Assembly: GCA_021325635.1 (NCBI GenBank)
Contig: JAJPGV010000028.1
Location: forward strand, 1 to 39,644
Direction of reading: 5' to 3'
Source: Chloroflexota bacterium
Lineage (GTDB): Bacteria > Chloroflexota > JAJPGV01
Length of the DNA stretch: 39,644 nucleotides
The translations under genes and the position numbers were made by a program. This document shows, in pieces, positions 3,342 to 34,736 of this stretch (positions are counted from its first letter, which is position 1; the number at the start of each line of letters is the position of its first letter). The notes below the pieces were generated by a model. The model saw only the letters and a program-made list of their open reading frames with translations. It was not told the DNA's origin and searched no databases.

Positions 3342-3361
3342 GCCTGATGGAGGAAAGCACC

Positions 3362-6300
3362 ATGCGCACAGAAGCACGCACCTCGAAATGGAAGGATCGG
3401 CTGCAGCTGGCCGGCCTTGTGGCCGTGCTGATCGGCACGGCTTGGGCGCTGCACGCCTGGGTCGGTTGGCCGCACCTGCCCGGCTCGCGCCCGAGCCTCG
3501 ACGCCATAGAAGTGGGCCTGCAAGGCACGAGCCTCTCGGCGGGTGCCTTCCTTTATATAGTGGGGCTCGCCGCGTGGGCGGCGTGGTTCTACCTCGCCGC
3601 CAGCCTGGCGCTCTACTCGATTGCGAGCCTGGCCGCCGCGCTGGCGCCGGGTAACCGCCATGTGGCGTCGCTGCGGGCGTGCCTGGCGCGGGTGACCCTC
3701 CCGGCAGTTCGCCGCCTGGTAGAGGGAGCATTTCTGGCCAGCATCATCCTGAACGCCGGCCTGCGTGCCGCCCCGGCGCTGGCTCAGTCGGCCGCCACGC
3801 CGGCGGCCGTGACCGTCTCGACCCAGAGTGTCGCGCAGGCTGTCCCGGATCAGCCGGTCGAGTCGAGCGACATCGAGTACACCGTCCAGAAGAACGACAC
3901 GCTGTGGGACATCGCCCGGCGCTTCTACGGCGATGGGGAGGAGTACCGGCAGCTGCTGTCGGCCAACCAGGGCCACCAGATGGCGGACGGCCAGAAGTTC
4001 ACCGAGGCCGGCGTGATCCGCGAGGGCTGGAAGCTCCGTATTCCGCTACCCAGCGCGGCGATCCAGGTTGATCAGGACCAGGTGCGCTACGTCGTCCAAC
4101 CAGATGACTGGCAGGGTCTGAGCGGCATCTCCGCCCGTCTGCTCGGCGACCCCAACCGCTGGGGCGAGATCTACCAGCTGAATAGGGGCAAAGCCCGCAT
4201 GCCGGACGGCCGCGTACTCCTTGGCCCCGACGTCATCTGGTCGGGGCTGCCGCTGACGCTGCCCATCAAGGCGCCGGCCGCGCCGCCGGTCGACGCCCCT
4301 CCAGCTCCGGTGCCACAGCTCGTGGTCGAGCCGCCGAGCCCTGCTGTTGAGGCGCCTTCGGTGGAAGCGCCGCCCGTGACTCCCGTGGTTTCGGAACCAT
4401 TGCAATCGGCGCCAGCCGAGCCGGCGACCGCTGCGCCGGGCCCTTCGACGGACATCCCGAAGGTGCTGGCCGAAGCCGCGGCGGCCGCAGCACTGGCTGG
4501 TGCGGGAACACTGCTTGTAAGGCGCCGGTTCCGGCGCAGTTTGCAGGAGCCGCCGCCATTGCCCGCCGAGGCTGACAGCGGCGATGGCGGCGAGGGCTTC
4601 GCCGAGGCCGAGCTGTCCAGAGCGTTCAGCCACCGGCTGCACAGCGGCGAAACCGACACCGCCGTGCTGGCCGCCCGGGCCCTGTCCCAGGTGCTGCGCG
4701 ACAAGGGTTTGGACGCAGTATCCATCGTGACCGCCAACCACGGACGGGCGAGTCTGGACCTGACGCTCGAAGCTTCGCTGCTGGACCAGGCCTCGCTGGC
4801 AAAGGCCGTGCCCGACATCCAGCGGCGTCTGGGCTGCAACGCGCGCTGCTCCGTCACGGCCGACCGGGACGTCCTGCTGCAGCTGACCGGCCTCAAACGG
4901 TCGAACCTGGCCGCGCTGGATCGCGGCGAATCAGACGGCCCGCCGCTGATCGGTCTGGGGCTGACGGCACAGCGCGGGACACTGTACGCCAGCTGGGACC
5001 AGCTCGGGCACGTCCTCATCGCCGGCCTGCCCGGCGGCGGAGCAGAGGTGGCGCTGACCGGTCTGGTGGCCGCGCTGGCTTGCCGCAAGCGGCCGGCCGA
5101 CCTTCAGCTGCTGACTATCGGCAGCCACCGTGTGCTACCTGCCGCCTTCGGCCAGTTGCCGCACCAGCGCTTTGGCCTGCTGGAGAGCAGCGACGAGCGC
5201 CTGGCCGAGGCACTCGACTGGCTGCGCGGCGAGCTGCACGAACGCCGGATCAGCGCGGGCCGGCTGGAGACGCCAAATCCTGCCCGGCCGGAGATCGCGC
5301 TGGTGCTGTCGGAGCTGCAGGAGTGTGCGGGTGCCGAGGGCCTGGTGGAGTCGATTCTGGCGGAGGGTGCGACGTACGGCCTGCGTGTGATCGCCGCTAC
5401 GCAGCGCTCCGAGGACATTCCCGAAGAGCTGCTGACGCAGTTCGACACCCGCGCAGCCTTGCAGATGCTGGATGAAGACCACAGCATCCGCCTGTTGGGC
5501 CAGCCTGACGCTGCCGAGCTGCGGGGCGGCGGCGACGCCCTGGTCCGGGTGAGCGGCCGGCGCGGACTGCGGCTGCGGCTGTTCCGCGTGGCGGATGACC
5601 ACCTGCAGGAGCTGACGGAGCTGATGCGTGCCGCCTATGAGCCGGCTGCCCCACCTCCATTGGCCGCCGAGCAAGCGAGCGCTGATGTTTCGCGTGAGCC
5701 CGAGACTGCTGCGGCGGAGCCACAAGCCGTCCTACGCGTTGAGATCACGCTTGACGAGCCGGTTGTGGACTGGCCCGAGCCGGATGTGGTGGTCCTTGGC
5801 GAGGCCCCAGCTGACATAGCGGACGCTGCTGAGGAGCAGGACGCGCAGGTCGAGGCCATCGAGCAGGTGCCGCTGCCGCTGTCGTTCGGCACGGATACGC
5901 AGCTGCGCGTCCGCTGTCTTGGCCCCATGCGCGTGCTGTTCGGCGAGCGCGAGGTGTTGCCCGGGCCGAAAGGCGCCAAGCCCTGGGAGCTGCTCGCCTA
6001 CCTGGCTACACGTCCCGGCTACACCGCCAGTACGGAAGAAGTGCTGGCCACGCTGTGGCCCAAACGCACGCCGCAAGAGGCGCTCAACCCGTTCTACATC
6101 GCGGCCTCGCGCTTACGGAATCGCCTGGCCAGCCAGGTGCCAGAGTTGGGTCAGGACGTGCTGCTGGTAGATCACAACGGAGGCTGCGCGCTCGATCCGC
6201 GCAAGGTCAGCACGGACCTGGCCGAGTTCCTGGAGCTGTGCCGCAAGGCGCCAACCTTGCCACCGTCCGAGGCGGTGGTCACCTACGCACGCGCACACGC

Positions 6301-6733
6301 GCTGTACGGCGGCAACCTGCTGTCGGGCTGCGAGTACGAGTGGATGTTCGACCGCTCCCAGACCGGCGTCTCGGAAGAGGAGCGCTATCGCGAGAACTTC
6401 TACGCCGTCACCAATGAGCTGGCCCGGTTGCAGCTGGACGCCGGCCATCCCGAGCTGGCCGTTCCGCTGTTGAAGGGCCTGCTCCGCGAAGAGCCAACGC
6501 TCGAGGACGTCGTTCGGAGCCTGTATCGCTGCCACGCGGCCATGGGTGATCGCATGGCGCTGCTGCGCGAGCACAAGCAGTTGCAGGAGGCCCTGCATCA
6601 GCTCTTCAGCGAAGACGGCAAGGAGCCAGATCCAGACCTGTGCCGGCCCGAGGACGAGACCATCGCGCTGTTCCACGCGCTGATCGAATCCATGGGTGGC
6701 GACAGGATTGTCGAGCAGCAGGCTATCGCGTGA
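3362..6733 (+). CDS. LysM / degenerate FtsK-like motor / BTAD regulator fusion
   Basis: A 1123-residue protein. I chose ATG 3362 because GGAGGAAA lies at 3349-3356. Two or three transmembrane helices lie in residues about 15-140. A LysM repeat starts at Y173 (YTVQKNDTLWDIARRFYG) and a second LysM-like repeat at Y243. A Pro-rich linker and another helix (about 375-385) follow. Residues about 430-730 align by eye with the FtsK/SpoIIIE core: GHVLIAGLPGGGAEV (549-563) replaces the Walker A motif, VLSEL (648-652) replaces Walker B, and RVIAATQR and the GRGD-like GGGDALV segments are kept. The C-terminus from residue 848 is an OmpR-like winged helix plus a BTAD helical domain. LysM-BTAD proteins are known from Actinomycetota and Chloroflexota. 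Its location implies a link between wall, pilus and transcription, but this is inference. Confidence 0.8.
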   Translation: MRTEARTSKWKDRLQLAGLVAVLIGTAWALHAWVGWPHLPGSRPSLDAIEVGLQGTSLSAGAFLYIVGLAAWAAWFYLAASLALYSIASLAAALAPGNRHVASLRACLARVTLPAVRRLVEGAFLASIILNAGLRAAPALAQSAATPAAVTVSTQSVAQAVPDQPVESSDIEYTVQKNDTLWDIARRFYGDGEEYRQLLSANQGHQMADGQKFTEAGVIREGWKLRIPLPSAAIQVDQDQVRYVVQPDDWQGLSGISARLLGDPNRWGEIYQLNRGKARMPDGRVLLGPDVIWSGLPLTLPIKAPAAPPVDAPPAPVPQLVVEPPSPAVEAPSVEAPPVTPVVSEPLQSAPAEPATAAPGPSTDIPKVLAEAAAAAALAGAGTLLVRRRFRRSLQEPPPLPAEADSGDGGEGFAEAELSRAFSHRLHSGETDTAVLAARALSQVLRDKGLDAVSIVTANHGRASLDLTLEASLLDQASLAKAVPDIQRRLGCNARCSVTADRDVLLQLTGLKRSNLAALDRGESDGPPLIGLGLTAQRGTLYASWDQLGHVLIAGLPGGGAEVALTGLVAALACRKRPADLQLLTIGSHRVLPAAFGQLPHQRFGLLESSDERLAEALDWLRGELHERRISAGRLETPNPARPEIALVLSELQECAGAEGLVESILAEGATYGLRVIAATQRSEDIPEELLTQFDTRAALQMLDEDHSIRLLGQPDAAELRGGGDALVRVSGRRGLRLRLFRVADDHLQELTELMRAAYEPAAPPPLAAEQASADVSREPETAAAEPQAVLRVEITLDEPVVDWPEPDVVVLGEAPADIADAAEEQDAQVEAIEQVPLPLSFGTDTQLRVRCLGPMRVLFGEREVLPGPKGAKPWELLAYLATRPGYTASTEEVLATLWPKRTPQEALNPFYIAASRLRNRLASQVPELGQDVLLVDHNGGCALDPRKVSTDLAEFLELCRKAPTLPPSEAVVTYARAHALYGGNLLSGCEYEWMFDRSQTGVSEEERYRENFYAVTNELARLQLDAGHPELAVPLLKGLLREEPTLEDVVRSLYRCHAAMGDRMALLREHKQLQEALHQLFSEDGKEPDPDLCRPEDETIALFHALIESMGGDRIVEQQAIA

Positions 6734-12298: not shown

Positions 12299-12367
12299 GC
12301 CATAGTTGCCGCGCACATGGTGGTCGAGGTGCAACGCAAGCCAGCCGACGTTCGGGCGTCGGACCCC

Positions 12368-13339
12368 ATGCCACGGGCACTGGCGCCGATGCTGGTTCAG
12401 CTGGCGCACGAGCTGCCCGAACACGACGAAGACTGGGCGTTCGAGCCGAAGTGGGATGGTTTCCGCGCGCTGGCATTTGTGAACAAGGGGAAGGTGCGGG
12501 TCAGCAGCCGCAACGGCGGCGACTTCACCGGACATCTGCCCGAGCTGCAGGCGCTGGCGCCCGCACTCGGCGGCCGGCCCGCGGTGCTTGACGGCGAATT
12601 GGTGGCCGTGCGCGAAGACGGGCTGCCAAGCTTCGAGCTTCTCCAGGAGCGCATGGGCCTCGAGCGCACGAGCCGCCGCGAGCCCATCCCGATCATGCTG
12701 ATGGTATTCGACCTGCTGTACCTGGACGGCCGTTCGCTCTTGCCCGAGAAGTACGTTCAGCGCCGCTCAGAGCTCGATGCGCTGAACCTTAACGGCGACT
12801 TCTGGAGCACGCCCCCAATGTGCATTGGGCAGGGCGCAGCACTGTATGAGAGCAGCTGTCACATCGGCCTGGAAGGTGTGGTCGCCAAACGGCTGAACAG
12901 CCGCTACGAGCCGGGCAAAAGGTCGGGCGCGTGGATCAAGGTCAAGCGCCGGCACCGCCAGGAGCTCGTCATCGGGGGCTGGATTCCCGGTGAGGGCAAT
13001 CGCACTGGGCGCATCGGCGGACTGCTGGTCGGGTATTACGAAGGGGGCAAGCTTGTGTACGGCGGTAGCGTCGGCACCGGCATGACGGACGCGACCCTGC
13101 GTCATTTACGGGAGGTCCTGGAGCCGCTGGCCTGCTCCAACAATGTGTTCGACGGCGGCGAGCTGCCGCCCTGGCAGCTGCGCTTCGTGCGGCCGCAGCT
13201 GGTCTGTGAAGTCGAGTTCTTGGAGTGGACGAAACGCAGCGGGCAGCTGCGCCATCCATCGTTTCGCGGGCTGCGGCCGGACAAAGACGCACGGACCGTC
13301 GAGCGCGAGGACCTTCCTCGCTGGCATCCCGCCGATTGA
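12368..13339 (+). CDS. ATP-dependent DNA ligase (LigD ligase-domain / LigC type)
   Basis: A 323-residue protein with nucleotidyltransferase motif I EPKWDGFR (nucleophile K28), motif III VLDGELVAV, motif IV LEGVVAKR, motif V WIKVKRR and an OB domain ending LRHPSFRGLRPDKDA. It seals nicks using ATP, and in related bacteria it acts in non-homologous end joining. The polymerase and phosphoesterase modules of LigD and a Ku gene are not in this window. I chose ATG 12368 because the family begins with LAPML directly before motif I. ATG 12317 would add 17 atypical residues. It is the last gene before the conjugative element. Confidence 0.9.
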   Translation: MPRALAPMLVQLAHELPEHDEDWAFEPKWDGFRALAFVNKGKVRVSSRNGGDFTGHLPELQALAPALGGRPAVLDGELVAVREDGLPSFELLQERMGLERTSRREPIPIMLMVFDLLYLDGRSLLPEKYVQRRSELDALNLNGDFWSTPPMCIGQGAALYESSCHIGLEGVVAKRLNSRYEPGKRSGAWIKVKRRHRQELVIGGWIPGEGNRTGRIGGLLVGYYEGGKLVYGGSVGTGMTDATLRHLREVLEPLACSNNVFDGGELPPWQLRFVRPQLVCEVEFLEWTKRSGQLRHPSFRGLRPDKDARTVEREDLPRWHPAD

Positions 13340-13362: not shown

Positions 13363-13494
13363 CCTTTCCCCCCTCGCCCGATCCTTTCCCGCCGTTCCTT
13401 TCCCGCTGACCGCCTGACTCTCTGACCTTTCCCGGCACGGCCGGCCTTCACCGCCCGAGCGCCGCTTTTGAGCTCGGGAAAGGTTTGGGAAAGG
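13363..13494. repeat. CCTTTCCC direct repeats and inverted GGGAAAGG boxes
   Basis: Four exact CCTTTCCC boxes lie at 13363-13370, 13383-13390, 13397-13404 and 13426-13433. Two exact reverse complements lie at 13476-13483 and 13487-13494. Spacing is irregular (20, 14, 29, 50 and 11 nt start to start). Between the two groups is a perfect 7-bp inverted repeat CCCGAGC/GCTCGGG (13454-13460, 13472-13478) with an 11-nt loop. The array sits in the 200-bp gap between the ligase and the first gene of the conjugation module. It could be regulator sites for the operon, an iteron-type origin, or part of an oriT. Confidence 0.65.
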
Positions 13495-13539
13495 ACCTGT
13501 CACTAGCGTGGGCTGTGGAAACGAGTTCGAGGCCCGCAC

Positions 13540-14937
13540 ATGGAATTTCCCTTCACTTTCGAGTCGGACAGCCAGGTTCGCTCCTTCTCCTGGCCGTCGT
13601 TCGACCGGCGCCTGTGGTTAGTCCTCGTCATCCCGGTGCTCGCGGTCGGCGTGTTCCTCCAGCGCCACCGCGACACCGGGGCGCCGGTTCACCCGGGCAC
13701 TGTTATGGTCTCGGCCACTCCGACCGGCGCAGCCGTCAGCGTTGACGGCAAGTCGCGCGGACCCGCCCCCCAGCAACTGAGTCTCGCCGCCGGCACGCAT
13801 CGCATCGAGCTGCGGCGCAGCGGCTACCTGACCGACAGCTTCGCGATTGACGTTCGGCCGGACGCCACACTCGACCTGAATCGTGAGCTGTGGCCTGAGC
13901 GGCCACACGCCACCTTGTTGCGGCCACCGCTGCCGGGGACTGCTGTCGCCGGCGCGACGTTCCTGGCCGATGGCCGCCTGGCGTTAGCCGTGGCCGTCTC
14001 GGCCGAGGAACGCCAGTTATGGGCCTATGCCGGCGACTCCGATAGTTACCAGCGGCTTGGACCGTCCGGCGCATCGGCAGTGGCTGGGAGCGCCGATGGA
14101 CGCACGGTCGCCTACATCAAACGGAATCAGGCGTTCGGCGTTGAGAGCGGACCCGCCTGGACAGTCCGAGCGATCGATTCGGCCGGATCGGACCGGCAGG
14201 TCTACCAGGCCGGCAGCGGGGATGGCCAGGCGGTTGATCTGACGCTGTCGCCCGACGGGCGCCGGATCGTCCTCGCCGAGCGCAGCTCACTCGGAAGCAG
14301 CTCCCGGACTAAGCTCGTGCTCTTCGACGCGGGCCGTGAAGCACCGCAGCCGTTCACCGAACTTCCCGCCGAGCTGGTGCCAGGCAGCTACGTCTGGGCG
14401 CCGGACGGATCACGGGTGGCCTTTGCCGTCACGACGCCCACCGGCCAATCGCTGTGCCTGATGTCCACCGATGGGCGGTTTCGCTATCTCGGCGAGGTCG
14501 CGTCCGTGGGCAGCACCATCGCCCCGCTGCCGGTCGCGTGGTCCCGGAGCGACCAGCTGGCCTTCGAACGTCAGGGTGCGCCGGGCGGCGGCATCGGTCC
14601 ATTCGGCGTCTCTTCCTCACCACAGGTCGCACTCACCGAGGCCGCTGAAGGCAGCGTGCAGGTGCGGGGCAGTGGCGTCCCCGCGGGCTGGCTGGACGAC
14701 GGCTCGCTACTGATTCTCCACCGCCCCAAGCGGGACGGTCAGCTTGAGCTCAGCCAGCTGACAAACGATGGCGCCACGCGAACCCTGGCGCAGCTGCCCG
14801 TGAAAGGCGGCAACTACGCCGGTGAGTGGGACGGCCAGCGACGCCGGCTCATCGTGGGTGCCAGTCGCGACGCGACCCTGGGCGGCTCCGGCACCGATTT
14901 CTACCTGGTTGACCTCAGCGGCGGGGAGGTGTCATGA
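13540..14937 (+). CDS. Membrane-anchored PEGA-domain protein with TolB-like propeller
   Basis: A 465-residue protein with one transmembrane helix (about residues 26-42), then a PEGA domain (VMVSATPTGAAVSVDGKSRG, THRIELRRSGY; about 52-105). A repeated-strand region follows with LSPDGRRIVLAE, VWAPDGSRVAFA and similar blades typical of TolB/WD40-like propellers. The start is supported by GAGG at 13529-13532. PEGA domains occur in surface proteins, and the propeller suggests protein binding outside the membrane. As first gene of the conjugation operon it may be a mating-channel or surface adhesion component. It ends with a 4-nt overlap with the next gene. Confidence 0.65.
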   Translation: MEFPFTFESDSQVRSFSWPSFDRRLWLVLVIPVLAVGVFLQRHRDTGAPVHPGTVMVSATPTGAAVSVDGKSRGPAPQQLSLAAGTHRIELRRSGYLTDSFAIDVRPDATLDLNRELWPERPHATLLRPPLPGTAVAGATFLADGRLALAVAVSAEERQLWAYAGDSDSYQRLGPSGASAVAGSADGRTVAYIKRNQAFGVESGPAWTVRAIDSAGSDRQVYQAGSGDGQAVDLTLSPDGRRIVLAERSSLGSSSRTKLVLFDAGREAPQPFTELPAELVPGSYVWAPDGSRVAFAVTTPTGQSLCLMSTDGRFRYLGEVASVGSTIAPLPVAWSRSDQLAFERQGAPGGGIGPFGVSSSPQVALTEAAEGSVQVRGSGVPAGWLDDGSLLILHRPKRDGQLELSQLTNDGATRTLAQLPVKGGNYAGEWDGQRRRLIVGASRDATLGGSGTDFYLVDLSGGEVS

Positions 14938-15932
14938 AACGGCTGCTCTGCCCGGCCTCGGTTCTGGCGCTGGCGGTCCTGCTGCTTACGCCGGCAGCGG
15001 TGGCGGCCCAGACCGGTAACCCCGCTCCGAATCCGGCCGGTGGGCTGATGGGCCTGCTGCCCGACCCCAAGCAGTGGGCCGGCGATGTGTTCAGCCAGGT
15101 GTTCGTCAACCTGCTGCAGAGCATCGCCACGGGCCTGCGGCAGATCGTCTCCACCGTCCTGAACAGCCAGGTCAATGTGATCACGCGTACGCCGCCCGAA
15201 GCGTCGTATGCCAGCGCCACCGTCCAGAACCTGTGGGGCGTTATGCGCACCGTGGCGAATGGTGCGCTGGCGCTGGCCGCCATGTGGGCGGCCTTCGATC
15301 TCATTGCCCGTGAGCAGCTCGGCTCGCCCTACCACGAGGCAATGGAGATCCTGCCGCGCCTGGCGCTCGGAGCCTTGCTGGTCAACACCAGCCTGTCGTG
15401 GGCGCAGCTCAGCATCGACGCCAACAACGCCCTGTGCGGCCTGGTCTCACAGGGCAGCCTGCCCGCCTGGGACCAGACAACCGAGATCAGCCAGCTGCTC
15501 ATCCAGGTGCTGGCCACCCTGATCTATCTGATCACCGCCCTGCTTCTGCTGCTGCAGATGCTCATCCGCATTGCCCTGCTCGACGTGCTGGTGGTCGTCG
15601 CACCGATCGCGTTGTTGTGCGGCATCCTGCCGCAGACCCAGCGCTGGTCGGGGCTGTGGACCAGCACCTTCTTCGGCGCCGTCTTCACCCAGTTCGTCCA
15701 GATGGTGGCGCTGCGCCTGGGCAGCTCGATCCTCGGCGACCTGACGCCACTCGGCGCCGACGGGCGCCTCCTGTCGATCTTCTTTGGCATCGCCCTCATG
15801 GCGCTGACCCTGAAAATCCCCGGTCTCATCGGCCGGCATGGCGGCGACGGCCTCAGCTTTGCCCGCTACCTCGCTTACCGCCAGGCCGCTCGGGGTCTCG
15901 ACTCGCACGGCAGCCGGGGAGGCGACAAGTAA
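14934..15932 (+). CDS. TrbL/VirB6-like conjugation channel protein
   Basis: A 332-residue protein with a signal peptide (residues 1-25, cleavage near VAAQ), a soluble segment and then about six hydrophobic helices. The stretch LLQMLIRIALLDVLVVVAPIALLCGILP is characteristic of TrbL/VirB6-type proteins, followed by a polar C-tail. It should form the inner-membrane part of the type IV secretion channel. It overlaps its upstream neighbour by ATGA and the next start by TAATG, so translation is coupled. Confidence 0.75.
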   Translation: MKRLLCPASVLALAVLLLTPAAVAAQTGNPAPNPAGGLMGLLPDPKQWAGDVFSQVFVNLLQSIATGLRQIVSTVLNSQVNVITRTPPEASYASATVQNLWGVMRTVANGALALAAMWAAFDLIAREQLGSPYHEAMEILPRLALGALLVNTSLSWAQLSIDANNALCGLVSQGSLPAWDQTTEISQLLIQVLATLIYLITALLLLLQMLIRIALLDVLVVVAPIALLCGILPQTQRWSGLWTSTFFGAVFTQFVQMVALRLGSSILGDLTPLGADGRLLSIFFGIALMALTLKIPGLIGRHGGDGLSFARYLAYRQAARGLDSHGSRGGDK

Positions 15933-16843
15933 TGCCCGCCGCGGTGCTGCTGCTGGCCTTGACCGGACTGGATCGCGACGCCCTGAAGGTGCTCGGCGGG
16001 CTGGCCGTGGCCCTCGCTATCGCGCTGGCCTTCGCTATCTCCAGCTTCATGGCCACGCTGGGCGCGATCGCGCCGGGCGAGACGGTCCATCGCACCGAGC
16101 CCAAGACCATTCCCGCCGAGCAGCTGGTGGTCATGGAGGACGCGGCCGGCCTGTGCGGCCTGCCGTGGCAGGTGCTGGCGGCCATCGCCGATGTCGAATC
16201 GGACTTCGGCCGCAACATGGCAACCTCCGAGGCCGGGGCGATTGGCTACGGCCAATTTCTGCCGCAAACGTGGGCTGCATACGGCGGCGATGGCAATCCC
16301 TACGACTACCGCGACGCCATCCCGGCGATGGCGCGCTATCTGTGCGCCAACGGTGGACCGCAGGACCTGCGCGATGCCGTGTACGCCTACAACCACGCCG
16401 GCTGGTATGTCCGCGATGTCCTGACGCTGGCCGCCAAGTATGGGTACCTCGTTCCAGGCGGCGCCAACTCGCAGGTGGTCGAGATCGCTCGTTCGCAGAT
16501 CGGCATGCCCTACGTCTGGGGTGGCGCCAGTCCGGAGACGAGCTTCGACTGCTCGGGGCTGGTGCAGTGGGTCTACGGCCGCATTGGCGCCCGGCTGCCG
16601 CGGACCGCGCAGCAGCAGTTTGATGCCACGGCGCGAGTGCCCATCGATCAGCTGCAGCCGGGCGACCTGGTGTTCTTTGCCCAGACCTACGCCTCCAGCG
16701 ATTACATCACGCACGTCGGCATCTACACCGGCAACGGGCGCATGGTCAATGCGCCCAGCCAGGGCGACGTCGTGCGCGACATGCCGGTATTCGGCGGCTA
16801 CTGGCTGGAGCACTACGCCGGCGGCGGACGGGTGGTGCGCTGA
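15932..16843 (+). CDS. VirB1-like cell-wall hydrolase: transglycosylase SLT plus NlpC/P60
   Basis: A 303-residue bifunctional enzyme. An N-terminal membrane helix (about residues 18-45) anchors it. An SLT-type lytic transglycosylase domain has the catalytic Glu E89 in IADVESDFG and the GAIGYGQFLPQTW motif. The C-terminal NlpC/P60 peptidase has Cys C207 (FDCSGLVQW) and His H261 (ITHVGIYTG). One domain cuts glycan strands and the other cuts stem peptides, as in conjugative hydrolases of Gram-positive elements such as TcpG/CwlT types. It would open the wall for the mating channel. Confidence 0.9.
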   Translation: MPAAVLLLALTGLDRDALKVLGGLAVALAIALAFAISSFMATLGAIAPGETVHRTEPKTIPAEQLVVMEDAAGLCGLPWQVLAAIADVESDFGRNMATSEAGAIGYGQFLPQTWAAYGGDGNPYDYRDAIPAMARYLCANGGPQDLRDAVYAYNHAGWYVRDVLTLAAKYGYLVPGGANSQVVEIARSQIGMPYVWGGASPETSFDCSGLVQWVYGRIGARLPRTAQQQFDATARVPIDQLQPGDLVFFAQTYASSDYITHVGIYTGNGRMVNAPSQGDVVRDMPVFGGYWLEHYAGGGRVVR

Positions 16844-16935
16844 TGACGCTGCCCTTTCAGCTGTTCGGCCGGCCGCCGTGACGCCCAGGCCTGAATCCCG
16901 TCATCCCCACATTTCGAGTTCAAAGGAGTTCACCC

Positions 16936-17169
16936 ATGGATGCCATCAATGCCTTGTTCAACAACCTGCTCAACGTCGGGCTCGGCGTCGCCGTGGCGGT
17001 CGCCGCCTTCTTCCTGATGAGCGGCGCCTTCGTCTACATGTCCTCCGGCGGGAATCCCCGCCAGATGGAGAAGGGCAAGACAGCCATCGTCAACGCGGTC
17101 GCCGGCCTGGCGCTGGTGCTGTCGGCCAAGGTCGTCGCCCAGATGCTGCAGACCGCGCTGGGTCATTAG
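16936..17169 (+). CDS. VirB2/TrbC-like pilin subunit
   Basis: A 77-residue protein with two hydrophobic helices (about residues 12-35 and 50-68) separated by a short basic loop SGGNPRQMEKGK. This topology is typical of VirB2-like subunits in PrgI/VirB4 systems. AAAGGAG at 16922-16928 is a strong SD seven bases before ATG 16936. The 92 bases between the hydrolase and this gene hold no convincing gene. Confidence 0.7.
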   Translation: MDAINALFNNLLNVGLGVAVAVAAFFLMSGAFVYMSSGGNPRQMEKGKTAIVNAVAGLALVLSAKVVAQMLQTALGH

Positions 17170-17176
17170 GTGCGGT

Positions 17177-17557
17177 ATGGCGCTGAGGCATCACGAGATC
17201 CCGACTCACCTGAACGTCGAGGACCGCGCCTTCTTCGGGCTGTCGGTCCGCCAGTTTACCGACCTCATCGCCGGTCTGGCCGGCACCTACAGCCTGTGGA
17301 ACACCTGGCCCGACCTGCCGATCGGCCTGCGGGTTTCCCTGGCGGTGCTTTCGTTGCTGATGACCGTGGTGGTGGCGCTGGCCAAGCCCGGTGGGCGGCG
17401 CGTCGAGCAGTGGCTGTTCGTGCTGCTGCATTACCTGCTGACTCCCAGGCGGCTGGTGTGGTGCCCGCGGCCGGTCGACGAGCTCGACTGGCGCACCGAG
17501 AGTCGGGAATGGGCCGAAGGCTCACCGACGCCCGCCTGGTCGGAGGCCCGGCCGTGA
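17177..17557 (+). CDS. PrgI family protein (VirB3-like)
   Basis: A 126-residue protein. The N-terminus HHEIPTHLNVEDRAFFGLSVRQF is diagnostic of PrgI proteins. Two transmembrane helices follow (about residues 28-50 and 52-70). PrgI proteins are VirB3-like inner-membrane partners of VirB4 and usually lie directly upstream of it. An AGGTG SD precedes the start, and the 3' end overlaps the next gene by four bases. Confidence 0.88.
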   Translation: MALRHHEIPTHLNVEDRAFFGLSVRQFTDLIAGLAGTYSLWNTWPDLPIGLRVSLAVLSLLMTVVVALAKPGGRRVEQWLFVLLHYLLTPRRLVWCPRPVDELDWRTESREWAEGSPTPAWSEARP

Positions 17558-18207
17558 TCGGCCGTGGTTCCGGCCAGCAAACCCTGGTCGCGCTGGATCG
17601 CATCGAAGACTCAGTCGCCTACCTGCGCGGCGGTCTGGCGCGGGCCGTCCTGGAGGTCGGCAGCATCAACTTCCGGCTGAAGGGCGAGGTCGAGCAAGAG
17701 GCCATCATCGCCGGCTATGCCGCCTGTCTTAACAGCCTGACATTCCCGGTCCAGATTCTCGTGCGCGTTCTGCCGATCGACGTCGAGCGCTACCTGACCG
17801 AGCTGGAAGAACGTGCCCGGCGTGAGCTGAACGATGCGCTCATCGAGCTGGCGCGCGACCACCTCCAGTTTGTGCGCCGGCTGGCACGCAGCCGCACGCT
17901 GCTCGAGCGTCGCTTCTACGTCGTGGTGCCCGGCGGCGACAGCCAGTTCGCGGTGAAGCTGCCGTGGGTCTCCCGCCGGCGCGAGCACAGGACCGACAAG
18001 ACCAGCCTGGAACAGCAGATCACGTTTCGCTGCGAGGAGGTCGAGCGTCAGCTGACGCGCTGCGGACTGCAGGTCCGGCGCCTTGGCGACACCGACCTTG
18101 CGCAGCTCTACTACTCATCGTTTTGCCCCGAGCTGGCTCGCCTGCAGCGGCTCAAACGCGACCTCAGCGACTACACCACCGCGGCCGTCCTGCCGGCGGC
18201 CGCTTAG
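17554..18207 (+). CDS. TraC-like protein (VirB4 N-terminal partner)
   Basis: A 217-residue soluble protein. GTG 17554 has GGAGG at 17542-17546. The sequence has YLRGGLARAVLEVGSINFRLK, then NSLTFPVQILVRVLPID, then a helical region and LEQQITFRCEEVERQLTRCGL. This is the N-terminal beta-rich domain seen in TraC/VirB4 proteins, encoded here as a separate gene directly before the ATPase. It probably assembles with VirB4 at the membrane. Confidence 0.7.
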   Translation: MIGRGSGQQTLVALDRIEDSVAYLRGGLARAVLEVGSINFRLKGEVEQEAIIAGYAACLNSLTFPVQILVRVLPIDVERYLTELEERARRELNDALIELARDHLQFVRRLARSRTLLERRFYVVVPGGDSQFAVKLPWVSRRREHRTDKTSLEQQITFRCEEVERQLTRCGLQVRRLGDTDLAQLYYSSFCPELARLQRLKRDLSDYTTAAVLPAAA

Positions 18208-18216
18208 GAGACCATC

Positions 18217-20046
18217 ATGCGATCCCTCAAGATACGCCGCCGGGCCAGGCCCGAAGCCCTGTCGCCCGACGAGCGGCGGCTGGCACTCGGCGTCCGCACC
18301 ATTGCGGACCTCATCGCACCCGCCTCGGCGCAGATCGGCCGCGACCACATCCGGCTCGACTACCACTACTGCCGCGCGCTGGCAGTGCACGGCTATCCAC
18401 GCACCGTCGCGCCGGGCTGGCTGTCACCACTCATCGACTTCGAAGCACCCCTCGAGCTGAGCCTGCACGTGCATCCGCTTGAGACGGCCGAGATGGTGCG
18501 CGCCCTCACGCACAAGCTGGTGCAGCTGCACTCCTCGCGGCTGCTGGCAGCCAAGGACGGCCGCCTGGCCGATCCCGAGCGCGAGGTGGCCTACGAAGAC
18601 ACCGAGCATCTGCGCGATGCGCTGCAGCGGGGTGAGGAGAAGGTCTTCTCCGTCGGGCTCTACATCCTGGTCCGGGCGCCCTCGCTGTCGGCATTGGATG
18701 ACCTCACGCGGCGCGTCGAGATCGCCCTCGACTCCATGCTGGCGCTGTCGCGGGTGTGCATTTTCGAGCAGGACTCCGGGCTGCGCTCCTGCCAGCCGCA
18801 AGGCTTCGACCAGCTACTGGTCACGCGCAACCTCGACACCAGCTCGCTGGCCACGACATTCCCGTTCTCGTCCTCCACACTCTCGATGGATAGCGGGGTG
18901 CTGTACGGCATCGCCCGGCACAACCACTCGCCGGTCATCTTCGACCCGTTCGACAGTTCCCTGGAGAACGCGAATGCGGTGGTGTTCGCCAAGTCCGGGG
19001 CGGGCAAGTCGTACTTCACCAAGCTCATGGCGCTGCGCAACCTGCTGGCGGGCGTCGACTTCATCATCATCGACCCCGAAGACGAGTACCGCAGGGTGTG
19101 TGAGGCGGTCGGCGGCCAGTATATGCGCTTGTCGAGCACGTCTTCGCACCATCTCAATCCTTTCGATCTGCCGCCTGCGGAGCCCGGCGAGGAAACGCGC
19201 GACCCGCTGGCCGAGCAGGTCGGCGAGATCCTGCGCCTGCTCGAGGTCATGCTGGCCGACAAGGACCGCGGGTTGAGCGCGCACGAGCGTGCGGTCCTGG
19301 ACCGGGCCATCTACACCGCCTACAGCCAGGCCGGCATCACTGCGGATCCGGCCACGCACGACCGGCCGGTCCCGCTGATGCGCGACCTGGCAGCAGTACT
19401 CGACGGCTGGCCCGGCGACGTGGCAGCCGATCTGGCCGTGCGCCTGCGCCGCTTCGTCGATGGCTCGCTGGCGGGCCTGTTCAGCGGGCCGACCAACGTC
19501 GCTCTCGACCGTCGGCTGGTCGTCTTCAACCTGCAGCGGCTCGAGGACGAGCTGCAGCCGGTCGGCATCCACCTCATCACCAGCTTCGTGTGGAACCAGG
19601 TACGCCGTGCCCGCAAGCCGCGGCTGCTGATCATCGACGAGGCCTGGAAGCTGATGCAGTTCGCCGAAGGCGGCGCCTTCATCGCCAGCCTCGCGCGGCG
19701 GGCTCGCAAGTACTACCTGGGCCTGCTGACCATCACCCAGGACGTCTCGGACTTTCTCAACTCCGATCACGGCCGGACGGTGCTGACCAACGCGTCCATC
19801 AAGCTGCTCATGAAGCAGGACAGCAGCACCATCGAGCCGGTCGTCAAGGCCTTCCAGCTGTCCGAGGACGAGCGCCAGTTCCTGCTGGCCTCGGGCAAAG
19901 GCGAAGGGTTGTTCTTCGCCCGCGGCAGCCATGTGGCCCTGCGGGTCGAGGCCAGCCCGGCCGAACACCGCCTCGCCACGACGGCGCCTCAGGAGCTGTA
20001 TGCGAATGCCACAGCGGCCGAGCCGGCGGCGGTGGCGGCGAGTTGA
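18217..20046 (+). CDS. VirB4-type conjugation ATPase
   Basis: A 609-residue protein with Walker A AKSGAGKS (residues 258-265), Walker B LLIIDEAWKL (from L470, acidic pair D474-E475), the DPEDEY motif and TITQDVSDF, all diagnostic of VirB4/TraC ATPases. The N-terminal domain before residue 250 is shorter than in full VirB4, which fits the separate TraC-like gene upstream. AGGAG at 18206-18210 precedes ATG 18217. It energises assembly of the channel and pilin extraction. Confidence 0.93.
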   Translation: MRSLKIRRRARPEALSPDERRLALGVRTIADLIAPASAQIGRDHIRLDYHYCRALAVHGYPRTVAPGWLSPLIDFEAPLELSLHVHPLETAEMVRALTHKLVQLHSSRLLAAKDGRLADPEREVAYEDTEHLRDALQRGEEKVFSVGLYILVRAPSLSALDDLTRRVEIALDSMLALSRVCIFEQDSGLRSCQPQGFDQLLVTRNLDTSSLATTFPFSSSTLSMDSGVLYGIARHNHSPVIFDPFDSSLENANAVVFAKSGAGKSYFTKLMALRNLLAGVDFIIIDPEDEYRRVCEAVGGQYMRLSSTSSHHLNPFDLPPAEPGEETRDPLAEQVGEILRLLEVMLADKDRGLSAHERAVLDRAIYTAYSQAGITADPATHDRPVPLMRDLAAVLDGWPGDVAADLAVRLRRFVDGSLAGLFSGPTNVALDRRLVVFNLQRLEDELQPVGIHLITSFVWNQVRRARKPRLLIIDEAWKLMQFAEGGAFIASLARRARKYYLGLLTITQDVSDFLNSDHGRTVLTNASIKLLMKQDSSTIEPVVKAFQLSEDERQFLLASGKGEGLFFARGSHVALRVEASPAEHRLATTAPQELYANATAAEPAAVAAS

Positions 20047-20050
20047 TGCC

Positions 20051-21130
20051 ATGCGCCTCGATAACCGCCGCTACGACACGGAAGCTCTGCGCTCCGCGCA
20101 CGCCGTCGAGGACGTCGTCCGCGCCTCAGGCGTTGAGCTCAAGCCGACGGGCAAAGCACTGGTCGGGCTGTGCCCGCTGCATGCCGATGGCCATCGGCCC
20201 AATTTGTATGTCTATCCGCTGACCCGCAGCTGGTACTGCTACCGCTGCCAGCTCGGTGGCGACGTCATCAAGTTCGTCCAGCTGCGCGAAAACCTCGGCT
20301 TCGTCGAAGCCTGCAAGCGGCTGGACGCCCAGCCGGAGGTTCGGCAACCGGTGACCTGTACGGCTCCGGCACCGGAAGACTCGGCCGCCTGGGAGCACTT
20401 GTCACGTCACGACCAGCTGCTTATGGACGCGGCGGCGGCCATCTACCAGGAGTGCCTGTGGCAGAACGAACGAGCGCTGTCGTATGTCCGCCGACGCGGC
20501 CTCACCGACGCAACCATCCACAGCTGCGGCATCGGGTATGCCGACGGCGTCAGCCTCGATCGCTACCTGGCTCGTCGCGGCCGCACCGAAGACGCCCACC
20601 GACTCGGGCTCCTCACCCGCCGGCCGTGGTGTACGCACGGCGTGCGCACGCGTGAACTGCTGGCTGGCCGGGTGGTCGTGCCGGAGCAGCGGGACGGACA
20701 CGCCATCTGGTTCATCGCCCGGGCCATCGACGAGCTCGAGCCAAAGTATCTGGCGCTGCCACACGCGCGCCCGCTGCTGGGCTATGGAACGCTTGCCGGA
20801 CAGCGCGAAGCAATCATCTGCGAAGGCGTCTTCGACTTCCTCAGCCTGATCGAGCTGGGCTGTCAAGCGGTGGCCTTGTGCGGAACACATCTCCCGCTGG
20901 AGCGTCTGGCCTTCCTGCGGGACTACGACCCCGTGGTTGGGCTGCTAGACCCGGACAAGGCCGGGCGGCAGGCGACGCAGCGGCTGGCGGAGTTCCTGGG
21001 CGATCGCTTCCGCGCGGTGGAGCTCCCCAACGGCTGCGATGTCAACGAGCTGACCCTCCGATCGGGCGGGCAGCAGGAGCTCATCAACCTCATTTCCCTG
21101 GCAAGGAGTCAACATCATGAAGCGGCTTAG
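20051..21130 (+). CDS. DnaG-like primase with CHC2 zinc finger and Toprim
   Basis: A 359-residue protein. The zinc finger uses C41, H44, C63 and C66 (CPLH ... CYRC) near the N-terminus. The Toprim region has AIICEGVFDFLSLI (E258) and LLDPDKAG. The middle (about 115-200) resembles the DnaG catalytic core N-terminus. It lacks the long C-terminal helicase-binding domain of chromosomal DnaG, so it is probably an element-encoded primase for the transferred strand. It begins four bases after virB4 and overlaps the coupling gene by 14 nt. Confidence 0.85.
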   Translation: MRLDNRRYDTEALRSAHAVEDVVRASGVELKPTGKALVGLCPLHADGHRPNLYVYPLTRSWYCYRCQLGGDVIKFVQLRENLGFVEACKRLDAQPEVRQPVTCTAPAPEDSAAWEHLSRHDQLLMDAAAAIYQECLWQNERALSYVRRRGLTDATIHSCGIGYADGVSLDRYLARRGRTEDAHRLGLLTRRPWCTHGVRTRELLAGRVVVPEQRDGHAIWFIARAIDELEPKYLALPHARPLLGYGTLAGQREAIICEGVFDFLSLIELGCQAVALCGTHLPLERLAFLRDYDPVVGLLDPDKAGRQATQRLAEFLGDRFRAVELPNGCDVNELTLRSGGQQELINLISLARSQHHEAA

Positions 21131-23765
21131 TTTCAAAAGCCGGCCCGCGGGTCCGGCTACCCATCTGCTCGAGGTTGTGACCCCCGGCAGCAGCCTGGCA
21201 GGCATTGAGGCGACCGCCAATTTCCTCGCCTCGATGGCGACGTCGCGCCCGTTTGCCCTGGAGATCGCGGGCACCAGCGACGCCCGCTGGCTGCTCGTCC
21301 GGGCATACGACGCGGTCACACTCCACCAGCTGGAGCAGCAACTGATCGCGGCCTATCCGCAGGCCCAGCTGCGGCAGGTCGACCTGGACCGTTACCCGTC
21401 GGCCGACCCGCTTACGCCGCGGTCCCATGAAGCCTCTGGCGTATGCGAGCTGGCGCTAGAGGAGCCGGAGTATCTGCCCCTCCGGACCTTCGGCGACGGC
21501 GCCGCGGGGGACAGCCGGCCCATGCAGTCCGATCCCGTGGTCGGCATCGTGAACGCCTTGCGCGTTCCGGACGGTCGCCGCGCCGTCGCTCAGCTGGCGC
21601 TTGCACCCGCCCCGCGCGGATGGGCCAAGCCTCACCAGCAGCTGATCGCGCAGGAAGAAGCGCGCCGGCGCATGCCGTCCCTGGAGACCGCTTCCTGGAG
21701 CGGCATCGCGACACCGATCTTCGCCTTTTTCGGAATCGTGTCGCTGATGCTGGGCTGGCGCTGGTATGGCGACGGTGAGTGGTGGAAGATCGCCCTGGTT
21801 GCCGGGCTCGGAATGGCAGGCGTGGCCGCTGTCTTCCTTTACCTGCGGCGCTCCGGGCAGACTCTGCCGATCGACCCCGACCAGATCAGAGCCAAGATCA
21901 CGCCGCCGGCATACACGGCCCGGCTGCAGTTGGCAGTGTTCGGCCCGGCGAGCGCATCGGCCGCGGAGATGGGTGCCCACCTCCGGCGGATTGCCGGCGC
22001 CTACGGGCAGTTCAGCCTCAGCACCGGCAACACGCTCGGGCCGCGCAAAGCGTCGGGATCTGACCTCCGTGTCCTTGCTCCATGTTCCGCCCAACGGCTG
22101 AACATCTTCGAGCTGGCGGGACTGTGGCACCCTCCCCTCACCGGCGCGGATGTGCCGCTGGTGGAGCGCACCGGCTTCCGGCGCAGCCTGCCGATGCCGG
22201 ACGTCGTCCGCACCGGCTGCCGCATTGGTGTCTCGGAGCACCAGGGCCACTCCATGGCGGTCCACCTCCCCGACGAGCTGCTGCGGCGGCACATGCTGCT
22301 GGTGGCCAAGACCCGCCGGGGCAAGTCCAGCCTCATGCTTCGCGTGGCTACGCACCTGATGCGGGCACACGACCCGCTGCTCGGTCCGCCGGCTGTTCTG
22401 CTGGTAGACCCGCACCGCGACCTGGCGCAGGCCGCACTCGGCCTGGTGCCCGAGGAACGGCGCAAAGACGTCGTCTACCTGGACCTGACCGACACCGACT
22501 TCCCGTTCGGCCTGAACCTGCTAGATGCGGGCCTGGGCTGGGACCGCGACAAGGCCGTGCACAACACGCTCGACATCATGCGCCGCCAGTGGGAGAACTT
22601 CTGGGGTCCGCGCATGCGACTCGTGTTCGAGTTCGCGCTCCAGACCATCTATGAGGCCAACCGCGCGCTGTGTCTGGCCAGTCCCGACGGCCGGCGGCGT
22701 CAGTACACCCTGCTGGACGTCGCGCCTCTGCTGATCGACCCGATGTATCGGCGCCATGTGCTGGCGTCGGTGCAGGACCGCAAGATCAAGGAGTACTGGG
22801 CCAACGAGTTCGAGAAGCTCGACCGCACCACTCAGATCGCCAGCATCACCCCGGTCCTGACGAAGGTTGAGCGCTTTGCCGCCAGCATGATTGCGCGCCG
22901 GGTGGTCGGTCAGCCCGCATCGACGATTGATCCCGCCGCCTGGCTGCGGAACGGCTCGATCGTCATCGTCAACACCGCCAAAGGTGTGGTCGGCGAGGAC
23001 ACGGCCGCGCTCATCGGCGCCACGCTACTGAACCTCATGAATGTCGTTGTGAGCGAGCAGGCCTCTCTGCCTGAGGACCAGCGGCACCGCATCGCCATCC
23101 TGGTCGACGAATTTCAAACGATGCCGGGCGCCGGCTACGAGATGACGCTGGGCGAGCTGAACAAGTACGGCGCGAACCTGGTCCTGGCGACGCAGACACT
23201 CTCGACCATCGACGTGCTCGACCGCGAGGAGGGCCGTGACCTCAAAGGCAACCTGTTCGGCAACCTGGATGGCCTGTTCACCTTCAACATGAGCGCCGAG
23301 GATGCGACGTACCTCGTTGCCGAGCTGGGCGAACCCTTCGTGGAGCAGGACCTCCTCAGTCTGCCCGAGCACACCTGCTACGCGCGGATCTCGGCCAGGG
23401 GCGTGCCGCAGCCCCCGTTTTCTGTGGTGCTGGACCCGCCATGCCAGTCGGACCCGCGCGTTGCGGCGTTACTCGCTCAGTCGTCGGCCGCCCTCTACGG
23501 CCGGCCGAAAGATGATGTCGACGACGACCTCATGTCGGCCATGGCCAGGCTGGAGCAGGTCCGCCCGCAGTGGACCAATCCGGACGGCGCCGGACTGCCG
23601 AACGACGGCGGCGGCCGCGGCGGGAAACGCAAACGCGATCGCCGGGGCAACGGCGACCCACGTCGAGGACCGAAGCCTCAGGACGCCACGCAGATGGACT
23701 TGATGCCGGAGCAACCGGACGATGCCAGTTCTGGCCAGAGGCCGACAGACGACGCCGGCCGTTAA
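21117..23765 (+). CDS. TraG/VirD4-like coupling ATPase
   Basis: An 882-residue protein. Two transmembrane helices lie at about residues 198-245. The ATPase domain has a P-loop AKTRRGKSS (397-405, first Gly of Walker A replaced by Ala), DPHRD, Walker B LVDEFQ (acidic pair D664-E665) and ATQTLSTID (sensor region). The C-tail (from about 795) is low-complexity and charged. AAGGAG lies 10 bases before ATG 21117. Such proteins bring the DNA-protein substrate to the channel. The large N-terminal extension is typical of Gram-positive-type elements with an SPFH/DUF87-like layout. Confidence 0.85.
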   Translation: MKRLSFKSRPAGPATHLLEVVTPGSSLAGIEATANFLASMATSRPFALEIAGTSDARWLLVRAYDAVTLHQLEQQLIAAYPQAQLRQVDLDRYPSADPLTPRSHEASGVCELALEEPEYLPLRTFGDGAAGDSRPMQSDPVVGIVNALRVPDGRRAVAQLALAPAPRGWAKPHQQLIAQEEARRRMPSLETASWSGIATPIFAFFGIVSLMLGWRWYGDGEWWKIALVAGLGMAGVAAVFLYLRRSGQTLPIDPDQIRAKITPPAYTARLQLAVFGPASASAAEMGAHLRRIAGAYGQFSLSTGNTLGPRKASGSDLRVLAPCSAQRLNIFELAGLWHPPLTGADVPLVERTGFRRSLPMPDVVRTGCRIGVSEHQGHSMAVHLPDELLRRHMLLVAKTRRGKSSLMLRVATHLMRAHDPLLGPPAVLLVDPHRDLAQAALGLVPEERRKDVVYLDLTDTDFPFGLNLLDAGLGWDRDKAVHNTLDIMRRQWENFWGPRMRLVFEFALQTIYEANRALCLASPDGRRRQYTLLDVAPLLIDPMYRRHVLASVQDRKIKEYWANEFEKLDRTTQIASITPVLTKVERFAASMIARRVVGQPASTIDPAAWLRNGSIVIVNTAKGVVGEDTAALIGATLLNLMNVVVSEQASLPEDQRHRIAILVDEFQTMPGAGYEMTLGELNKYGANLVLATQTLSTIDVLDREEGRDLKGNLFGNLDGLFTFNMSAEDATYLVAELGEPFVEQDLLSLPEHTCYARISARGVPQPPFSVVLDPPCQSDPRVAALLAQSSAALYGRPKDDVDDDLMSAMARLEQVRPQWTNPDGAGLPNDGGGRGGKRKRDRRGNGDPRRGPKPQDATQMDLMPEQPDDASSGQRPTDDAGR

Positions 23766-23779
23766 AGCGAGGAAATGTG

Positions 23780-25540
23780 ATGGATTCCGAGCACACCTGG
23801 GGCGACGCTATGTCGGCCGCGCACAAGCTGACACCCAGCCACCGCACGGTAATGCGGCTTCTGATCCGGCTGCCGCTGGCACCGGCGGACACGCTCCGGG
23901 CGTTGTCGGGCGCGGCGGGACCCTCAGCGGTCTACCGGCAGCTGAACGAGCTCCAAGCGCGCGGCCTCGTAGCGCGATTCAACGCCATGCAGGAAGAAGG
24001 GCGGCCGGGGGCGCTGTACTACCTCACCGACCTCGGCGTCGCGGCGATCTGCATCGTCTCCGGCGTCGAGCCACGGCCCGTGGCTCAGCGCTACCGAATC
24101 CGCTACTGGGACCTGCTGCAGCAGATGCCCACCCTGCCGCAGCTTTTAGCCGAGTACCGCTTACTGGCCCGAGTCGCCGACGCTGGTTACGGACGCCCTA
24201 ACCTGTGCGCCTGGCAGCGGCCATGGCGCCCTCCGAACTGGCGCGTGCGTGGCCGGCAAGTGCCGCCACTGGTGGATCTGGAGTGGGAAGAAGGGCGCAT
24301 TCGCGCCATCCTCCTGGCGGACGCGGGCTTCTATCCCCTGAGTCTCTATCGGCGCCTGCTTCGCTATCTGGCGGATCGGGCGAGGCAGGACGTCCCGAGC
24401 CCGCCGCTACTGATCGCCTCACCGAACGAATTGCGTACGAGCGGCTGGCGCGCCGTGCTGCGTCACGTGCTTCAGGATGTCGGCGCGGCTCCAGATGTAA
24501 CGCTGAGCGGGCCGGGCGCTCTTGACGTAGACGACGCGCTCGCCGCCCTGGCGGCCCGCGCTGCGCTGGCGGATGCCCAGCGTCCTTCCCCGAGCCGGTT
24601 TCCCCAATTTCGTCCGCGCGATGCAGAACGGCCCCTCCCGTGTTTCGCCGGCTGGGCCGACGCGATGCAGCATCGCCTTACGCTCCGTACCGAGCTCGGG
24701 TTGAAGGCCATGCAGCTGACGCGGGCCGATCGTGAGCTGCTGGACCTACTGGCACAACATCCGTTCCTGTCGGCTAACGACATTGCCTCATTCCTGTCCC
24801 GGCCGGTGAGGTGTATCCACCGCGTGTTGCGGCGCTTCGTCGCAGTGGGTCTCGCCCTGGTCGTCGAGCGGCGCCATGGCCGCCGCAGATCGTACGAGTT
24901 GTGTACGACGGGATTGGAGCTCGCGGCCATGCAGGCGGGCTTGACGCTGAAAGCCGCCTCGACGCAACTTGGCTTCGCCGGCGGCGGACCCCAGCAAGAC
25001 ATCGGCCCACGCCGCGACCTGTGGCTGAAGTTCACGCACACCCGGAAGGCCGATGAGGCTGTGGCGCTGCTGGCGAGCGACGCAGGCGTGGATGTCGTTG
25101 CATGGCGGTCCGCGCAGGCGGCTCTGCAGGGGAAACGCTTTCGACCTGACGGTTATCTCGTTCTGGGCGTCGGCCGGCAGGGGGCCGGCTTCTTCTTCGA
25201 ATTCGATACGGGCAAAGCCAGCATGGCCGATTACCGCCAGAAGCTCGGGACCATCTTCGACTTCTTCGGTCGGTCGCACTGGCGCCATCGCTATCAGAGT
25301 CCACCAGGCTTTCTGTTCGTCACCGAGCAGCAGCCGGCTGAAAGCCGCTTCTGGAGGGCGACCGCCGAAATGGTGTCGGCCTACGGCTTCCCACTGCCCA
25401 TCTTCACTACGACCATGGCGCAGCTAAAGGCCAGCGGCGTACGCAGTCGCATCTGGCGGCACAGCCCGGTGGCGAGTGAGCACCGGATCGCTCTCCTGAC
25501 ACCCGCCGGGTCGCGGGCCACTCGCCGGCCGGCGGCCTGA
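23780..25540 (+). CDS. Replication-relaxation family protein
   Basis: A 586-residue protein. Two winged-helix modules are visible (residues about 14-95, LTPSHRTVMRLLIRLPLA ... LYYLTDLGVAAI; and about 310-400, LTRADRELLDLLAQHPFL ... YELCTTGLELAA). The C-terminal region has RPDGYLVL (D457), FFFEFDTG (E474, D476) and YRQKL (K488), resembling a PD-(D/E)xK nuclease fold. The family is widespread in actinobacterial and Chloroflexi plasmids and elements and is named for a presumed relaxation role. SD AGGA precedes ATG 23780. The gene directly follows the coupling ATPase, the usual position of a relaxase. Confidence 0.75.
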   Translation: MDSEHTWGDAMSAAHKLTPSHRTVMRLLIRLPLAPADTLRALSGAAGPSAVYRQLNELQARGLVARFNAMQEEGRPGALYYLTDLGVAAICIVSGVEPRPVAQRYRIRYWDLLQQMPTLPQLLAEYRLLARVADAGYGRPNLCAWQRPWRPPNWRVRGRQVPPLVDLEWEEGRIRAILLADAGFYPLSLYRRLLRYLADRARQDVPSPPLLIASPNELRTSGWRAVLRHVLQDVGAAPDVTLSGPGALDVDDALAALAARAALADAQRPSPSRFPQFRPRDAERPLPCFAGWADAMQHRLTLRTELGLKAMQLTRADRELLDLLAQHPFLSANDIASFLSRPVRCIHRVLRRFVAVGLALVVERRHGRRRSYELCTTGLELAAMQAGLTLKAASTQLGFAGGGPQQDIGPRRDLWLKFTHTRKADEAVALLASDAGVDVVAWRSAQAALQGKRFRPDGYLVLGVGRQGAGFFFEFDTGKASMADYRQKLGTIFDFFGRSHWRHRYQSPPGFLFVTEQQPAESRFWRATAEMVSAYGFPLPIFTTTMAQLKASGVRSRIWRHSPVASEHRIALLTPAGSRATRRPAA

Positions 25541-34729: not shown

Positions 34730-34736
34730 GTATCTC

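Follow-up and report, generated by a model that had tools for sequence, protein, structure and literature searches.

SARP-type promoters and related systems

In Streptomyces promoters controlled by SARP activators, such as the afsS promoter recognized by AfsR and PimR-type operators, direct repeats recur in steps of 11 or 22 bp, and the 3′ repeat is located 8 bp from the −10 element (PMC10936776, PMC5930380). Within a box extending from −40 to −19, the bases contacted by AfsR are the first 8 of every 11-bp unit; the −10 hexamer of such promoters is suboptimal and the −35 hexamer poor (PMC10936776). Combining these box coordinates with a −10 element at −12, which is our reading of a scaffold, puts the start of the last unit 17 bp upstream of the −10. 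The genes under the control of Streptomyces SARPs are antibiotic genes. A protein with a LysM and a BTAD domain, PAGK_2369, is encoded among the Tad genes of the Cutibacterium (Propionibacterium) acnes HL096PA1 plasmid, where it is named TadB and has no stated regulatory role in the part of the account cited here (PMC3666418). SARP control of conjugation was found in none of the titles and abstract openings retrieved from the open-access literature. The kind of promoter is known; its use in Chloroflexota conjugation, element-specific repeat words and a membrane-anchored SARP have, as far as open-access searches go, not been described.

The window analyzed here is a 39,644-bp stretch of Chloroflexota DNA, part of a 4.64-Mb genome. 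It contains a repeat array that is read, with a probability of about 0.82, as the putative operator-promoter of the T4SS operon of an integrative-conjugative-type element, activated by the element's own SARP.

The octamer array of the window

All six copies of CCTTTCCC in the window fall within positions 13363-13494, four on the forward strand (13363, 13383, 13397 and 13426) and two on the reverse strand (13476 and 13487), so that the four direct and two inverted octamers reported in the preliminary description are real. Shuffled sequences contained 0.91 copies on average and at most 4 (100 shuffles). Read as GGGAAAGG, the word forms two groups. The distal group consists of four minus-strand copies (13363-13370, 13383-13390, 13397-13404 and 13426-13433), which face away from the downstream operon and are stepped by 20, 14 and 29 bp. 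The promoter-proximal group consists of two plus-strand copies, the upstream unit of a direct repeat at 13476-13483 and a second unit 11 bp after it at 13487-13494, which starts 17 bp before a predicted plus-strand −10 hexamer, TAGCGT, at 13504-13509. The proximal layout is thus GGGAAAGGTTT-GGGAAAGG-N9-TAGCGT (GGGAAAGGTTT GGGAAAGGACCTGTCAC TAGCGT). The hexamer at −35 spacing, AGGTTT at 13481-13486, is poor and lies under the repeats, as in Streptomyces SARP promoters (this −35 was read in the window promoter). The 8-bp word in an 11-bp unit, the suboptimal −10 at 17 bp and the poor −35 are all shared with those promoters, where 8 bp of each unit are contacted. Antisense promoters were looked for by eye, and no −10 was seen at 17 bp from the inverted distal copies; the window contained no Rfam match.

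The array lies between a DNA ligase-like gene (12317-13339) and a plus-strand operon (13540-25540) that it is predicted to drive, encoding a PEGA protein, TrbL, an SLT-NlpC/P60 protein, a VirB4-type ATPase, a DnaG-like primase and a Replic_Relax protein. The integrase of the element, a tyrosine recombinase, is encoded at 25980-27320 on the plus strand. Of the features of an integrative and conjugative element (integrase, T4SS ATPase, relaxase and att sites at the ends), an integrase, a VirB4-type ATPase and a Replic_Relax protein were found; no tRNA that could serve as an integration mark was found in the window. Downstream of the integrase, and probably outside the element, lies a VanZ-like gene (30689-31225), and a protein with a KaiC-like double ATPase domain is encoded on the minus strand at 33248-34945.

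A perfect hairpin, CCCGAGC-11 nt-GCTCGGG, is present at 13454-13478, as had been noted before, but it is unremarkable, since perfect 7-bp hairpins occur in 105 of 599 132-bp windows of this sequence, which places it at chance level. Same-strand pairs of the octamer 1-60 bp apart were found in only two places in the genome, this array (4 matches) and contig C45 (3 matches). The pattern CCTTTCCCG has 46 matches in the genome, of which 9 belong to the window and C45 arrays, 1 stands alone on C45 and 36 lie elsewhere. The reversed control gave 33 matches, compared with these 36, indicating that CCTTTCCCG is at background outside the two arrays. A lone copy of CCTTTCCC is located near the far end of C45 (L008 13179-13197, at 13186), with no −10 at 17 bp by eye.

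A second promoter at the cpaF-tadB junction

Bases 1-107 of the window (plus strand) overlap the start of contig C45 (locus L008), matching its first 107 bases in reverse complement; this contig encodes RcpC/CpaB, a ParA/MinD-type ATPase, CpaF and a TadB-like protein. Since the cpaF and tadB genes of the element are located on this overlapping contig, the array lies inside the element, and its earlier placement at the likely left end is not upheld. The junction between cpaF and tadB (L008 2002-2186) carries a second promoter of the same layout, GGGACAGGATC-GGGAAAGG-N9-CAGAGT (GGGACAGGATC GGGAAAGGTTCGGCGGC CAGAGT), again with 11 bp between the units and 17 bp from the start of the last unit to the −10. 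Each of the two promoters is accompanied by four more distal copies in the opposite orientation, which on C45 are stepped by exactly 21 bp. These extra upstream copies, at steps of 20-22 bp and inverted in this element, distinguish the arrangement from the SARP promoters of Streptomyces, as does a word that varies between elements; the genes predicted to be controlled also differ, being the T4SS and Tad pilus genes of a Chloroflexota mobile element. On C45, the distal array (L008 2000-2200) extends over the 3′ end of the cpaF reading frame, so that its 21-bp repeat encodes a 7-residue (LSR-type) repeat in a C-terminal extension of CpaF that reaches past the part shared with relatives.

The recurrence of the layout bears on the proposal that the array is part of an oriT or a replication origin, with repeats bound by a relaxase or an initiator. 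The repeats adjoin the transfer operon, and a Replic_Relax protein and a primase are among the products of the element, which would suit such a function. However, the repeats are also present 15.4 kb upstream, at the cpaF-tadB junction, and the related elements on contigs C17 and C24 have theirs in front of operons at three or four places each. An oriT is characterized by a nick site and relaxase-binding repeats at one place, and here the repeats are found at two or more promoters per element; no nick site was noticed. The hairpin, moreover, is no more than chance would give, and an origin is considered very improbable. The oriT and element-end readings were set aside, since the element runs on into C45 and other promoters have the same layout. 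Among the possibilities raised in the preliminary description (origin, oriT or operator), the operator is the one favored by the SARP-type spacing, the second promoter, the relatives and the SARP-domain protein; nothing was found pointing to an oriT or a replication origin.

The layout in related elements

Besides the element on C18 and C45, two further related elements are present in the same genome, on C17 and C24, with VirB4-type ATPases that are 69-70% identical, and relatives are present in other genomes of the phylum (VirB4 matches at 1e-30 in 116 of 400 genomes). The C17 VirB4-type gene (G000:C17:116684-118495) contains one TGA within the reading frame of the match. In the Chloroflexota relatives, the layout is repeated at the same two places, before tadB and before the PEGA gene, mostly with another word. 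The refuting condition named in the preliminary description, absence of the octamers from related elements, is partly inverted by this: an array of the octamer itself is absent from the relatives examined, and a different word occupies its place in the same layout. The words are TGTCACGT on C17, GTGTAATT on C24, GAGTAACT in G088, ATGTAGCC in G080, CCGGGAGC in G064, CGGTGATC in G228b30, GTGACGC in both G160 and G232, and TTGGAAC in G355. Some are alike, GTA being common to the words of C24, G088, G088b, G080 and G228, so that the words differ between most pairs of elements, not all. The distal copies in C24, G160, G232 and G355 are oriented unlike the four in the window. Repeat pairs with a −10 are confined to their own contigs: the C17 pair has 4 matches in the genome, all on C17 (1 match for the reversed control), and the C24 pair has 3, all on C24 (0 for the reversed control). 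On C17 and C24, one extra site each precedes a leftward, homologous-looking gene set with UvrD-like and primase-like genes.

The layout was evaluated statistically in regions defined by gene position (220 bp before the tadB or PEGA gene). In 16 regions, the sum of matches at a lag of 11 was 88, whereas 1000 shuffles gave a mean of 54.8 (sd 5.06) and a maximum of 70; the sums were 76 and 79 at lags 21 and 22, and 52-64 at the other lags from 8 to 30. For 23 regions from 16 elements, the mean layout score was 5.74 of 8, compared with 3.36 (sd 1.23) for 75,399 control windows taken elsewhere in these stretches, giving a z of 9.2 that is optimistic, since the regions and elements are related and the control windows overlap. 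None of 100,000 resamples reached the 23-region mean, a score of at least 6 was obtained in 14 of the 23 regions as against 3.0% of the windows, and the top site of the scan was the described site in 17. The 17-bp rule had been fixed on the first elements, and 7 regions were fetched afterwards. Five of these later regions scored 7 or 8, values reached by 0.4% of windows, although one genome accounts for three of the five, which are near-duplicates; the remaining two regions scored 5 and 2. The two promoters of an element share its word: among the 5040 permutations possible for 7 elements, the pairing of each junction with the pre-PEGA region of its own element was the best, the units having been chosen by eye in register with the −10.

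The layout is not uniform. G301 has no such site (2 of 8), and the pre-PEGA array of G160 contains repeats without a −10 in register (2 of 8). The junctions (J) of G160 and G232 have a proximal spacing of 12 bp, in place of 11 or 22 bp, and the scan picks another site there; in G088b and G015, its top site is in a shifted register. Some regions (C24, G088 P and G080 P) scored at most 4 of 8 in the blind scan, although the word is recognizable there.

The candidate activator

The predicted activator is encoded at 3347-6733 on the plus strand (1128 residues). It contains hydrophobic segments (residues 19-40, 63-101 and 373-391), a LysM domain (178-209), an FtsK/EccC-like domain (about 546-752) and a C-terminal SARP domain. 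AfsR and EmbR share with it the OmpR-type DNA-binding and BTA domains; unlike in those proteins, the SARP domain is C-terminal here, placed behind the N-terminal hydrophobic segments, the LysM domain and the FtsK/EccC-like domain. With HL096PA1 protein PAGK_2369, it shares a LysM and a BTAD domain and a location in a Tad cluster.

The assignment to the SARP family is based on several comparisons. Residues 846-1050 match AfsR positions 22-213 (NF053617), far below that family's own cut-off. The BTAD score of the window protein is over the Pfam cut-off and that of Trans_reg_C is below it (19.6 vs 26.2 bits), and both domains were seen in 11 of 13 family members. AfsR (8hvr) was matched with an E-value of 1.7e-4 using the single sequence and 5.6e-7 using a family profile of 13 members, and EmbR (2fez) with 2e-4; the top matches of the profile, ahead of AfsR and EmbR, are TPR proteins, which align with the BTA part through its helical repeats. 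Arg92 and Arg94 of AfsR align with Arg82 and Arg84 of the window domain, two residues that do not vary among the 13 members of the alignment, but G355 has Tyr where AfsR has Arg92. A structure of the SARP domain predicted from the single sequence was of poor quality (mean pLDDT 46.7) and was left out of consideration.

A SARP-domain protein was found in 9 of 18 stretches, the exceptions being contigs that are too short or have another layout; a tenth, weak match (C15) lies outside these elements. The three G355 elements were found to encode the domain after more sequence was searched, and 28 of 400 genomes match at 1e-15. No SARP was seen in the 39.7-kb stretch of G040. The cpaF and tadB genes are located upstream of the SARP gene in 7 of 20 neighborhoods, the rest being short contigs or SARP relatives without Tad matches. 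A plasmid search with the window protein returned 91 records, none covering 80% of the query, and those among the matches listed were mostly Streptomyces SARP proteins.

The LysM pattern is present in 16 of 20 family members, and two of the other four are short open frames. The Walker A pattern GxxxxGK[ST] is absent in 19 of the 20 proteins, the sole match being at residue 891 of the open frame of G080. An FtsK/EccC-like domain lacking the Walker A lysine, positioned between LysM and SARP, might constitute an inactive-ATPase signaling module. The presence of this domain in the predicted binder, together with a likeness of GGGAAAGG to KOPS-type G-rich octamers, could also suggest that the repeats load or orient the FtsK-like domain, in the manner of KOPS or of the repeats recognized by Streptomyces TraB. 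The missing Walker A pattern and the location of the sites at promoters, at a fixed distance to the −10, make this scarcely credible, and KOPS- or TraB-type loading was rejected on the first of these grounds.

A proposed regulatory circuit

By analogy with AfsR, copies of the SARP are predicted to bind the GGGAAAGG units side by side. Two units spaced 11 bp apart and ending 8-9 bp before the −10 would put the activator over the poor −35, where it could recruit RNA polymerase. The twin operator before tadB on C45 would drive tadB, tadC and the genes behind them, as far as the SARP gene itself. The tadB promoter is directed along tadB, tadC and the same-strand genes leading to the SARP gene, which makes autoactivation likely, assuming that these genes are co-transcribed. 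A positive feedback loop of this kind would raise the Tad pilus, the activator and the T4SS together. The inverted copies of the distal group probably serve as additional binding sites, although this role is a guess.

If correct, this reading would name a conjugation switch for an element family in a poorly studied phylum and extend SARP control beyond antibiotic genes, to the transfer of DNA. It would also provide a natural series of activator-operator pairs, in which the words have diverged while the layout is fixed, so that the regulatory separation of co-resident elements and the way in which a SARP helix reads its repeat would become testable.

Repeat words and the SARP recognition helix

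Motif distance and SARP recognition-helix distance are correlated across 15 elements (Mantel r = 0.60, p = 0.00025). The correlation is r = 0.29 (p = 0.009) when controlled for the BTA domain; the BTA domain alone correlates with motif distance at r = 0.57, indicating that part of the relationship is explained by shared ancestry. Leaving out two of the G355 elements, of which there are three that are near-identical, lowers the Mantel r to 0.35 (p = 0.012) and the partial r to 0.25 (p = 0.044).

These data also bear on whether another DNA-binding protein of the element or host, such as a repressor, uses the array as its operator, the SARP-like spacing being a by-product of helical phasing. Helically phased promoter repeats suit many regulators, and the distal copies of the window are inverted and less regular. 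Yet the 11-bp spacing and the 17 bp to the −10 match SARP promoters specifically, and differences between the repeat words follow those between the SARP recognition helices, so that control by a different regulator is considered unlikely.

Within the preferred SARP reading, a further and tentative possibility, which we hold to be somewhat less than an even bet, is that each element has a private, self-reinforcing switch. The membrane-spanning LysM/inactive FtsK-like/SARP protein would sense the cell envelope or the pilus and jointly turn on the Tad pilus, the T4SS and its own gene, and the words would co-evolve with the recognition helix, such that co-resident elements would not cross-activate. 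Private words are not universal, since the three co-resident elements of G355 share one word, and their recognition helices are near-identical. Exact TTGGAAC clusters (at least three copies) lie near T4SS genes in one of the three G355 stretches.
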